A stretch of DNA of 64,000 nucleotides from Thermococcus radiotolerans (GTDB lineage: Archaea; Methanobacteriota_B; Thermococci; Thermococcales; Thermococcaceae), in contig NZ_CP015106.1 of NCBI RefSeq assembly GCF_002214565.1, positions 310,001 to 374,000 of the forward strand, written 5' to 3'. Below are positions 27,856 through 62,566 of this stretch, piece by piece. The notes beneath the pieces are model-generated. The model saw only the letters and a program-made list of their open reading frames with translations, did no database searches and had not been told where the DNA came from. A program made the translations under genes and the position numbers. Numbering within the stretch: position 1 is the first letter of the stretch; each line of letters opens with the position of its first letter.

Positions 27856-28612
<757 letters not shown>

Positions 28613-28757: not shown

Positions 28758-30047
28758 GTGGCTACTATGCCTGGCATCCCGAGCTTTGAGTTTGGAATAG
28801 AGACAATCGCCCTCGCCTCGCTGATGGTTCTCCTCTCGGGCATACTGGCGATGCTCATCAGCCGGAAGACGAAGTTTCCATACACACCTCTCCTCGTTCT
28901 CCTCGGTGTTCTCGTGGGCCCTGTTCTGACCCTGATACTTCCCCAGACCGCCAGGATGCTCTTCTACTACGTCCGCGCCTTTGGACTCTTCTTGGTTCTC
29001 TTCGCGGCGGGGTTCAGCCTCAGACTCGCTGTTCTCAAGGAGCACAAGCTCGTCATAACTCTGCTCGACACGATTGGCCTTCTGGGAACTGCCATCTTAG
29101 CCGGCTGGTTCTTCTCGTGGGCCTTCGGCGTTCCCTTCCCTGTTGGCTTCCTCTTCGGGGCGGTGGTTTCTGGCACCGACCCCGCGACGCTGATACCGCT
29201 CTTTCAGGAGCACAAGGTCCCGGAGGACGTCGAGACGGTAATCATCACCGAAGCCATATTCAACGGTCCCCTCGCGATAATTCTCACGATGGTGGCCCTG
29301 TTCCTCATAATCCCGGAGATTCCCGGCTACGCCCCGGTCGAACCGGTCTTGGAGGGTGCCGGCCTCTACGTTGCAGCTATCGTCTACTTCCTCTACCAGA
29401 TATTCGTCTCTGCCATCATTGGGGCAGTTATAGCCTACATAGCATACCAGGCCATAGTGCGGCTCGGCCTCTACAGAAGCCCTTACACACAGATACTCGG
29501 CCTGGCGATGGCCTTCGGGGGCTACGTTGTTGGAGAGTTCGTCGGTGCCTCGGGATTCCTCGTCGTTACAATAATCGGCCTCATCCTCGGAAACCACCGC
29601 GATTTCTTCAAGAGGAAAAGCAGTAAGGTGGACGATGCCGTGGAGAGAAACATGGAGTTCAACGACGTCCTCTCGACCTTCTCGGTTATATTCATCTTCG
29701 TGCTCCTCGGCGCGAGCCTTGATCTCACGGACCTGCAGTGGGGGACGATAGCCACATCGCTCATGGTGGCGCTGTTCGTGATATTCGTCGCCAGACCGCT
29801 GGCCTCCCTCGTTGTCCTGCCCTTCACTGGCTTCAAGCGGTTCCTCTTCATCTCCCTTGAGGGGCCGAAGGGTGCCGTTGCCGCGAGCATGGCGATACTG
29901 CCTGTCGTCCTTGGCAGGGCCTACAACAGTCCCGAGATGATCGCGTGGGGAGAGCTGATACTGAGCGCCGGGCTTATGACGGTTCTGCTCTCGATGCTGC
30001 TGGAGTCGGCGTGGGTTTCGCTTCTCAGGGAGAGGCTCCTGGATTAG
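28758..30047 (+). CDS. CPA-type cation/proton antiporter, transport-site Asp replaced
   Basis: This is a protein of about 429 residues with 12-13 membrane segments of the monovalent cation:proton antiporter family. GAVVSGTDPATLIPLF (the unwound TM4 motif) is typical of NhaP-like CPA1 proteins. The next motif reads TEAIFNGPLAI instead of the usual ESxxND, so the essential Asp is Gly. A TATA-like element (CCTTAAATAAT, about 28728-28738) puts transcription start at about the GTG 28758 or ATG 28767, so it is probably leaderless and the first codon is uncertain. The 3' end overlaps the convergent gene by 4 bases. Its ion is uncertain. Confidence 0.86.
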   Translation: MATMPGIPSFEFGIETIALASLMVLLSGILAMLISRKTKFPYTPLLVLLGVLVGPVLTLILPQTARMLFYYVRAFGLFLVLFAAGFSLRLAVLKEHKLVITLLDTIGLLGTAILAGWFFSWAFGVPFPVGFLFGAVVSGTDPATLIPLFQEHKVPEDVETVIITEAIFNGPLAIILTMVALFLIIPEIPGYAPVEPVLEGAGLYVAAIVYFLYQIFVSAIIGAVIAYIAYQAIVRLGLYRSPYTQILGLAMAFGGYVVGEFVGASGFLVVTIIGLILGNHRDFFKRKSSKVDDAVERNMEFNDVLSTFSVIFIFVLLGASLDLTDLQWGTIATSLMVALFVIFVARPLASLVVLPFTGFKRFLFISLEGPKGAVAASMAILPVVLGRAYNSPEMIAWGELILSAGLMTVLLSMLLESAWVSLLRERLLD

Positions 30048-30783: not shown

Positions 30784-31650
30784 TCAGAGGAACCGCTCCA
30801 TGAAATCCAGCACTGCCAGGGCCCTGTACGTGTTCTGGAAGTTCGAGATGCCCAGCTCCAGAGAGCGTCTGAAGCCGCCGTTGGGATTCTGTAGCTGGCG
30901 TATGAACCAGACGTGCCGCCTTGGGCAGCTTGGGGCCTCGCCCTGAAGTTCCAGCCCCCTGGCCGCGTAGAAGGTCGGCTCAAGGTACGGGGGTAGGCTG
31001 TAGGGAACCTCGGTGAAGCCGCCCCAGTCGCCGCAGAGCTCGCAGTTCTCGAAGTGCGGACTCCTTGGTGGCCTGTAGCCCAGGGTGCGGAGCGTGTAGA
31101 GTGCTTGGTAGGTCATCGTCGTCGTGGGGCTCTTGACGCCGTAACCGTTGCCGTTTCTGAACTTCATAACGAAGGCCCTTATAGATTCCTTTTCGTCGGT
31201 GCTGAACTCATAGCCTATGGCTTTGAACGCCTTGACCACCCAGTAGGTTGCCTCCAGTGGCGTCGCCGTTCCAAACTCCTCGCTCCCACCTAGGCCGACG
31301 GCGAATTTGTCCTCCAGCGGATTGTACTTGGTGAAAACGATGTCGCTTTTCTCCCTCGCAAGGTCCCTGGCCTCAAGCAGGGCAAGGCCCTCGAGGACCA
31401 TCGCTATCGCCACCACCGCCGTCTGGGGCTGTACTGCCTTCTCCAGGAATTCGATGGTCTTTTCCCTCTCCGGAATCTCGAGCCCGAGGAGGTCGTGAAT
31501 CTTGACCGCGTAGTAAGTATCGTTGACGTTGGTATCGTTGAGGACGCTGACGAAGCAGTAGCCACCGTCCTCGTGGCGTCTCTCCTCGATGTACCTGATG
31601 AGCGAATCAGCGTTAATGAATCGTCCAATTTCATAAAGCTTCGAGCCCAT
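30784..31650 (-). CDS. Prenyltransferase/squalene-cyclase repeat (alpha/alpha-toroid) protein
   Basis: This is a 288-residue protein built of repeated alpha-hairpins of the protein-prenyltransferase beta / squalene oxidase type. Examples are HEDGGYCFVSVLNDTNVNDTYYAV, TTTMTYQALYTLRTLGY, and LQNPNGGFRRSLELG followed by NTYRALAVLDF. An ENCELCGDWGGF segment has two Cys, but the canonical zinc ligands of prenyltransferases are not obvious, so catalysis is doubtful. ATG 31650 has GGAGG at 31662-31658. It is the first gene downstream of the fluoride riboswitch and leads a three-gene operon of unknown function. Confidence 0.82.
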   Translation of the reverse strand: MGSKLYEIGRFINADSLIRYIEERRHEDGGYCFVSVLNDTNVNDTYYAVKIHDLLGLEIPEREKTIEFLEKAVQPQTAVVAIAMVLEGLALLEARDLAREKSDIVFTKYNPLEDKFAVGLGGSEEFGTATPLEATYWVVKAFKAIGYEFSTDEKESIRAFVMKFRNGNGYGVKSPTTTMTYQALYTLRTLGYRPPRSPHFENCELCGDWGGFTEVPYSLPPYLEPTFYAARGLELQGEAPSCPRRHVWFIRQLQNPNGGFRRSLELGISNFQNTYRALAVLDFMERFL

Positions 31651-31655
31651 TCTAC

Positions 31656-31741
31656 CGCCTCCTTAAGGTTTTGACGGAGAACAGGCGTCATCAGCCCTCG
31701 ACGGGCGGTTCGGCTCGAAGCCCGGGCGGACGCCATCGCCC
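31656..31741 (-). promoter_or_regulatory. Fluoride riboswitch (crcB motif) with translational expression platform
   Basis: Aptamer 31741-31684 reads GGGCGATG-GCGTC-CGCCC, an inserted hairpin (GGCTTCGAGCC), GAACC, GCCC-GTCGA-GGGC, then TGAT-GACGC. P1 is GGGCG/CGCCC, P2 is GCCC/GGGC and the pseudoknot helix is GCGTC/GACGC. The order and conserved GATG, AAC and TGAT elements match known fluoride aptamers closely. Downstream, CGCCT (31687-31683) can instead pair with AGGCG (31660-31656) overlapping the Shine-Dalgarno, giving an off state without fluoride. The aptamer fold is directly visible; ligand and switching are inferred from the class. Confidence 0.92.
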
Positions 31742-31760
31742 GAAAGACCATCTGAACGGC

Positions 31761-31770
31761 GTTTAAAAAC
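31761..31770 (-). promoter_or_regulatory. TATA box of the fluoride-riboswitch operon
   Basis: GTTTTTAAAC on the minus strand is preceded by an A-rich BRE-like stretch. Its centre is about 25 bases upstream of 31741, so transcription should begin within a few bases of the first G of the aptamer. The site is near-palindromic, so weak plus-strand activity cannot be excluded. Confidence 0.7.
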
Positions 31771-31842
31771 GTTTGTGGTGCAATTACCTAATAACCTAAA
31801 AATTTAATAAGCATAAAACGGCCTTTCATTTGTGATGAAATC

Positions 31843-32532
31843 ATGGAATTCATAGCCTTCACATACGTCGGGAACTTCGTGAAGGAGGAGGTCATAAGGG
31901 AGGTCGTGTTCAACGTATTTGACGAGGCCAATCATTTCTTCGAGGAGAGCGATATCCCCCTGCGGTTTCTGTACATCGGGAAGCTTAAGCTTGAGCCCGG
32001 GTACCTGATAAGCCTGAACACCCCCGAAGGCAAGGTCAGGGTTTATCCCCTCGAGGCTCTGGTCGACGTCCTCCACGCCAAGCTTCTCAACGAGATAGAG
32101 GAGCGGCCAGACATCAAGATGAACAAGATATTCGCCCTGACGACCTTCCCGCTAGTCTCTCGCAATCCCTACTTCGATTTCTTCGAAAAGTTTCTTGGGA
32201 TACACGAAACGCGGATCGGCCTCAGGATTATGGTGCTCTCGATGAGGCCATTTGAACCCCCTGAGCTCTCAGAACTCCTGAAGAAGCCCGGAGAGAATGG
32301 AGATAGAGAGCTTCTGAGGTCCAAGCTTGAGCTCTTCAAGAACCGCCTCCTCAAGGGGGTTCTCCACGAGGTCGGCCACAGCTTTGGCCTCGACCACTGC
32401 ACCAACAACTGCGTCATGAACTCGCCATCGAGCATGGAGGAATGGGACTCCAGGATGCTCGGCTACTGCGATTCCTGCTTCATCAGCCTCAAGAGGGCCG
32501 TTGAATGGTCCGACCTCAACCTCAGGGATTGA
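31843..32532 (+). CDS. amzA: Archaemetzincin-family zinc metalloprotease (M54)
   Basis: This is a 229-residue metzincin peptidase. The catalytic site HEVGHSFGLDHC gives the three zinc His and general-base Glu. It is followed by a Cys and Met turn (NNCVMNSP) and CDSC, the four-Cys second zinc site diagnostic of archaemetzincins. It is somewhat longer than typical archaeal members, with an extra charged stretch around residues 145-165. A TATA box (AATTTAATAA, 31801-31810) and GTGATGAAATC lie upstream of ATG 31843. Substrates are unknown for the family. Confidence 0.92.
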   Translation: MEFIAFTYVGNFVKEEVIREVVFNVFDEANHFFEESDIPLRFLYIGKLKLEPGYLISLNTPEGKVRVYPLEALVDVLHAKLLNEIEERPDIKMNKIFALTTFPLVSRNPYFDFFEKFLGIHETRIGLRIMVLSMRPFEPPELSELLKKPGENGDRELLRSKLELFKNRLLKGVLHEVGHSFGLDHCTNNCVMNSPSSMEEWDSRMLGYCDSCFISLKRAVEWSDLNLRD

Positions 32533-62248: not shown

Positions 62249-62566
62249 TATTCTAGCTTTATCCTTTCACCCGTTCATTCTCGCCGGAGAAAGGCTTTGT
62301 AAGTTGACACGAGGCACTGGCGATGTGGTCTCTGAGGGGCGGATATTGACCATGAAGGCTGAACCTGCGAGTTTGCCCTGAAAATTGACAGATTCCTGCC
62401 AACTCCAATTAGTTAACTTTTTAAACCCGCTTCGTAACTTAGGGACGGAACTCATGAGGCCTCCCCGAGAAAAGGCGGGTTTCCCGCCCGAGGGGGCCGA
62501 GGTTCGAAAGATTTAAAAAGCCATCCTAGTCAACGAGACTAGACCAAAATATGGAGGTGTATGAAA
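62249..62566 (+). other. Long intergenic region upstream of aEF-1alpha, tandem promoters and structure
   Basis: This is the largest gap in the window. It holds a first TATA (CTTTTTAAACCC, 62417-62428) and a 41-base nested hairpin: outer GGCCTCC 62458-62464 with GGGGGCC 62492-62498, inner GGCGGG-TTT-CCCGCC 62474-62488. A 20-codon reading frame (62454-62516), a second strong BRE/TATA (CGAAAGATTTAAAAAG, 62505-62520) and a CTAGTC/GACTAG inverted repeat (62526-62542) at the expected start follow. Bases 62250-62410 show no clear feature. Confidence 0.6.

Follow-up and report, generated by a model that had tools for sequence, protein, structure and literature searches.

The 2014 transcript map of Thermococcus kodakarensis contains an 86-nt crcB RNA located upstream of TK0513 and not of TK0514, which is the crcB gene; this placement was called surprising, and TK0514 has its own separate start site (PMC4247193). 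A translational fluoride-responsive riboswitch was shown in vivo in a Thermococcus relative (Speed et al. 2018, as cited in PMC11077080 and PMC8241225). Known partners of the fluoride riboswitch class include formate hydrogen lyase (PMC2864571; PMC11139923) and, frequently in bacteria, Na+/H+ antiporters (PMC11139923). The leader described here belongs to Thermococcus radiotolerans and lies in the window, the whole stretch of 64 kb that was analysed and within which all positions are numbered.

The fluoride aptamer and the toroid gene

On the minus strand of the window, the Rfam covariance model RF01734 (cmscan, gathering score 34 bits) matches 31749..31675 with 48.5 bits and E 2.3e-10, aligned over model positions 1-64 of 64; the element is a fluoride riboswitch aptamer, an ordinary member of the known class, and the same search finds only this copy in the genome of 1.87 Mb. 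In the model alignment the P1 hairpin spans 31724..31741 (31741-31737 with 31728-31724) and holds in its loop the 5' strand of the pseudoknot GGCGU/ACGCC (31734-31730 with 31688-31684, seen also in the pair counts), and P2, GCCC/GGGC, spans 31694..31706 (31706-31703 with 31697-31694). The P1 and pseudoknot pairs are standard in 74/74 orthologous loci, with a pseudoknot U-A replaced by C-G in 7 of them. Between P1 and J1/2 the aptamer carries an additional hairpin, the insert GGGCTTCGAGCC (31712..31723). Transcription could start at about 31741, a position that fits a TATA-like box, TTTTTAAA, at 31769-31762, about 24 nt upstream; the box was called by eye, a sigma-70 scan being inapplicable to archaea, and most orthologous leaders have comparable AT boxes about as far upstream. 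Whereas many crcB RNAs overlap terminators (PMC2864571), no intrinsic terminator that could act as expression platform was found from 31640 to 31860, and a search for a second fluoride aptamer serving crcB in the window gave none even at E 5. A preliminary description had proposed, on this strand, the same riboswitch with P1, P2, the pseudoknot and the conserved letters, as well as a TATA box set for a start at the first aptamer base, and the alignment and the box bear all of this out; it had also placed the extra hairpin correctly between P1 and P2, missing its complementarity to the beginning of the coding sequence.

Immediately 5' of the aptamer, the Pyrococcus-like loci L072, L075, L077, L080, L082, L083, and L084 show a conserved hairpin RNA of about 60 nt, GGAACC...ATGAGCCGAAACCGGCAACGGGAGTAGG...GGTTCC, with two-sided changes in 5/16 predicted pairs and no Rfam match found there. 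Elsewhere in the window, SscA RNA (RF00063) is matched at 62447-62543(+) with 92 bits.

The aptamer sits in a 5' leader whose start codon lies 25 nt past the aptamer end. The gene that follows (30784..31650, minus strand) encodes an alpha/alpha-toroid protein of 288 aa (TOR; PF00432, E 5.3e-12), and after it come, on the same strand, the genes P100 (30463..30765, 100 aa), conserved in the operon of relatives, and P140 (30044..30466, 140 aa), which has a weak ribbon-helix-helix match below the cut-off and, in most genomes, a diverged paralogue elsewhere. The Fluc fluoride channel gene crcB (28241..28612; PF02537 2.2e-28, TIGR00494 above cut-off) and the gene of its partner DUF190 (27856..28254; PF02641 5.1e-38) lie 3 kb further downstream, also on the minus strand; they are split from P140 by a Na+/H+ exchanger-family gene in opposite orientation (28758..30047, plus strand; PF00999 E 4.4e-44), an arrangement present in some relatives only. 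In many relatives toroid, DUF6062 (PF19538), P100, P140, crcB, and DUF190 stand head to tail on one strand, and in several genomes of one genus crcB and DUF190 directly follow the toroid gene; DUF6062, which in relatives is placed between the toroid gene and P100/P140, is absent from the window locus.

The covariance search recovers the aptamer in 88/94 Thermococcaceae genomes, directly upstream of a toroid orthologue in essentially all of the ~90 loci read, and toroid orthologues were found neither in other genomes of the phylum nor in a GTDB contig scan at E 1e-3. In Pyrococcus-like genomes (g3), tens to hundreds of kb separate crcB, which has no riboswitch, from the sole riboswitch, which precedes the toroid gene; the latter gene is therefore regarded as the direct and constant target; crcB was rejected in this role, as the riboswitch does not follow it across genomes. 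The preliminary description is thus supported in naming the toroid gene as the next gene and as the target. Its term "non-channel operon" holds here to the extent that the antiporter separates crcB, but it had overlooked crcB and DUF190, which are encoded downstream on the same strand and, in many relatives, come after the toroid gene. Its statement that such a target was of a kind it did not know does not stand, the arrangement having been published for T. kodakarensis TK0513 (PMC4247193).

Two genomes depart from the general layout: G080 (L122) has a disrupted toroid gene, has lost the riboswitch, and keeps crcB close by on the downstream side, and in G012 (L121) the aptamer is degraded, crcB was not found in the 99% complete genome, and the toroid gene persists with its GGGCTCGAAG start.

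The AlphaFold model of the toroid protein is a confident toroid (pLDDT 89, pTM 0.90), and its closest Foldseek matches are squalene-hopene cyclases and RabGGTase beta (TM ~0.65, E ~1e-5), which share with it the alpha-alpha toroid fold and PF00432 at 15-18% identity. Protein prenyltransferases are marked by the zinc ligands Asp, Cys, and His (motifs DxC and His) and squalene-hopene cyclases by DXDD; when the toroid alignment is compared by eye, at the level of the alignment, with these motifs, no conserved DxC or His is seen where it would be expected, nor is DXDD, and for this reason the protein is not called a prenyltransferase. It is proposed to act as a fluoride-stress protein.

The insert and the first codons of its target

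Within the insert, GCUUCGAGCC is the exact complement of toroid codons 2-5 (GGCUCGAAGC): the strand 31721-31712, the proposed anti-start strand, forms 10/10 pairs with 31647-31638, within the start region ATG GGC TCG AAG C (start codon and codons 2-5, 31638..31650). Of the two exact copies of GGCTCGAAGC in the window, one lies at the toroid start, 31647-31638(-), and the other is the insert read in reverse complement, 31721-31712; the 11-mer target GGGCTCGAAGC has 2 occurrences in the 1.87-Mb genome, one of them at the toroid start. The ten insert-CDS pairs (helix A) are standard in 74/74 loci, with 15 wobble cells and 0 mismatches; the changes are one-sided wobbles only, with no two-sided covariation.

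The codons facing the insert are under synonymous constraint. Among 78 aligned orthologues codon 2 is GGC in 76/76, codon 3 is TCG in 75/77, and codon 4 is AAG in 72/72, and these are the three most synonymously conserved of 138 columns; for the 83 columns with at least four synonymous codons the median share of the top codon is 0.45 and the best value after codons 2 and 3 is 0.72, and TCG accounts for only 11% of the serine codons of the toroid genes. The third base of codon 5, a leucine codon, is free to vary, and the synonymous constraint ends where the complementarity of the insert ends. Where the insert is complementary, its helix with the coding sequence measures 11-16 bp and GGCTCG(A/G)AG (codons GGC TCG AAG/GAG) is retained in 75/75 loci, whereas the codons are changed in 7/13 loci devoid of insert complementarity (Fisher 2.7e-7 vs the 75 intact loci). 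Since the species are related, insert and codon states were also mapped onto the protein tree, where the changes in the coding sequence need at least 5 events, all on insert-minus branches that make up 17% of the tree length; by branch length alone this corresponds to (0.17)^5, about 1.6e-4. The codons are retained in six insert-minus genomes and in L121, which lost the whole aptamer. Computation thus shows that nucleotide-level selection on codons 2-5 tracks the insert.

The complementarity extends to the ribosome-binding region, which could be masked by aptamer strands, as the insert and the P2 5' strand complement codons 2-5 and the Shine-Dalgarno. In particular ACCGCC (31709-31704, formed by J1/2 and the P2 5' strand) is the second proposed masking strand and can pair with GGCGGT (31659-31654), which overlaps the Shine-Dalgarno GGAGG (31662-31658) as read from the sequence, in the same antiparallel register as the insert-CDS helix. 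The outer pairs of this helix (helix C) are broken in roughly 10/74 loci and are kept by G-U in others, and the combined helix of insert and ACCGCC appears in the MFE folds of several loci, including that of the window. The insert is paired with the coding sequence in the MFE of 73/75 native leaders vs 138/750 synonymous recodings of codons 2-5.

Folding under constraint gives the cost of the opposite state. When P1, the insert hairpin, and P2 are imposed and the pseudoknot strands kept free, the aptamer fold is less stable by ~16 kcal/mol (37 °C) or ~12 kcal/mol (85 °C), with pseudoknot and ligand energy left out of the sum. At 85 °C the start region then goes from an unpaired fraction of 0.32 to one of 0.89; at 37 °C the change is only from 0.17 to 0.31, a rival local hairpin being formed. 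When P1, P2, and the pseudoknot strands alone are reserved, the insert still pairs with the coding sequence and the start codon is not released; release occurs only if closure of the insert hairpin is imposed as well and is clear only at 85 °C, a temperature at which the unassisted insert hairpin is unstable. When increasingly long prefixes of the window leader are folded at 37 °C, some lengths have the insert in its own hairpin, and it moves to the coding sequence only once nucleotide +11 has been made.

In 10 of the loci read (L001, L003, L019, L053, L073, L081, L085, L086, L087, and L089) a second copy of the aptamer, lacking the insert, precedes a NuoH/HycD-like gene (PF00146) that belongs to a membrane hydrogenase cluster and is followed by a small membrane-protein gene; these copies form a second class. 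In 10/10 of these loci the P1 5' strand and its flank, UUCCGGG, face CCCGGAA in codons 2-4 (69/70 cells paired), the conserved UUCC flank lying outside the aptamer core. Between Shine-Dalgarno and start codon lies GACGCC, which repeats the pseudoknot 3' strand and is paired by the pseudoknot 5' strand GGCGUC (60/60), and the whole mask is the MFE in 9/10. The start is masked by different aptamer strands in the two classes, which supports the masking principle.

The proposed switch and its alternatives

The reading we favour, and consider likely, is a fluoride-ON translation switch of the toroid gene, with part of its OFF state written into the coding sequence. In the absence of fluoride, the nascent 5' region would refold: codons 2-5 would be taken up by the insert strand 31721-31712, and the GGCGGT at the Shine-Dalgarno by ACCGCC; start codon and ribosome-binding site would be buried, and the insert hairpin and P2 destroyed. 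Fluoride and Mg bound during transcription would instead lock P1, P2, the pseudoknot, and the insert hairpin in its closed form ahead of the synthesis of codon 5, so that the masking strands would be unavailable and the start codon free. Because in the folds the insert pairs with the coding sequence unless its hairpin is forced closed, and the prefixes switch only at +11, the control exerted by fluoride on the nascent aptamer is probably kinetic. Geometry and folding order suggest that the bound aptamer excludes the insert-CDS duplex, as the closed hairpin keeps its flanking strands together and the ten-pair duplex would hold them apart.

The masking could be organized differently. In an ordinary translational switch, GCCUGUUCU, located 3' of the pseudoknot, would mask the start codon AGAAUGGGC (helix B) and release it when the pseudoknot takes GCC, the insert being only a stable capping hairpin; this helix of nine pairs has standard pairing in 67-74 of 74 loci, depending on the position, and overlaps a pseudoknot strand, with which it would compete. 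It leaves unexplained, however, the synonymous fixation of CTCGAAG (codons 3-4) and its change only upon loss of the insert, and UGUUCU is conserved also in the hydrogenase class, whose start region offers it no partner. Helix B was rejected as the sole mask on account of codons 3-4 and is treated as a secondary or rival mask, and the reading built on it alone has a small but appreciable chance of being correct. The insert-CDS helix might also coexist with the bound aptamer and repress, giving a fluoride-OFF switch or a constitutive damper, and folding of secondary structure alone does permit it alongside P1 and P2; this seems very unlikely, since the ten-pair duplex would part the two aptamer strands that the closed hairpin joins and the Thermococcus switch is described, in the papers that cite it, as an inducible, fluoride-responsive expression system (PMC8241225, PMC11077080).

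The target itself could be another. That crcB is the real one, with the toroid gene a passenger of a transcript that formerly extended to crcB, would agree with the position of crcB and DUF190, which in most Thermococcus genomes lie further along the same strand and in one genus have no gene between them and the toroid gene, but is improbable given the distant crcB of the Pyrococcus-like genomes, the start site of its own that crcB has in T. kodakarensis (PMC4247193), and a masking element that reads on the toroid start codon. The discrete 86-nt RNA reported in T. kodakarensis (PMC4247193) would fit a short leader RNA that acts in trans by pairing with a start region; the only other exact genomic copy of the target 11-mer is, however, internal to an ORF and not at a start, a trans target of the insert was rejected on this basis, and such action is extremely improbable. 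Taken over the whole family, it seems somewhat better than an even chance that the OFF mask of the Thermococcaceae switch is an inserted hairpin, antisense to the first codons of its target and fixing their synonymous choice, and that the hydrogenase sister class uses the P1 5' and pseudoknot 5' strands instead.

Relation to known fluoride riboswitches

The mechanism read from the sequences is specific enough to be probed with synonymous mutations in an archaeon amenable to genetics, and leaving the native first codons out of an expression construct may cost it the OFF state. What stays with the riboswitch is a toroid protein restricted to Thermococcaceae and not the fluoride channel, which marks an unstudied gene of the fluoride response.

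The placement of the riboswitch before a non-channel gene is already published (PMC4247193), and judging from the layout TK0513 would be the toroid gene. The T. kodakarensis crcB RNA and the Thermococcus switch belong to the same family, occupy the same place before a non-crcB gene that precedes crcB and, as far as the citing papers report, act by translational control; the texts consulted, which cover the work of 2018 through citing papers, assign no role to either the coding sequence or the insert. With the crcB motif of RF01734 the window element has in common the complete aptamer, comprising P1, P2, the pseudoknot, GATG, AAC, and TGAT; unlike the members of RF01734 in general, it contains in J1/2 a structured insert complementary to the downstream coding sequence. 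An insert that is an antisense copy of the first codons, matched by synonymous constraint on these codons, seems to be a new form of expression platform, depending on the content of Speed et al. 2018.
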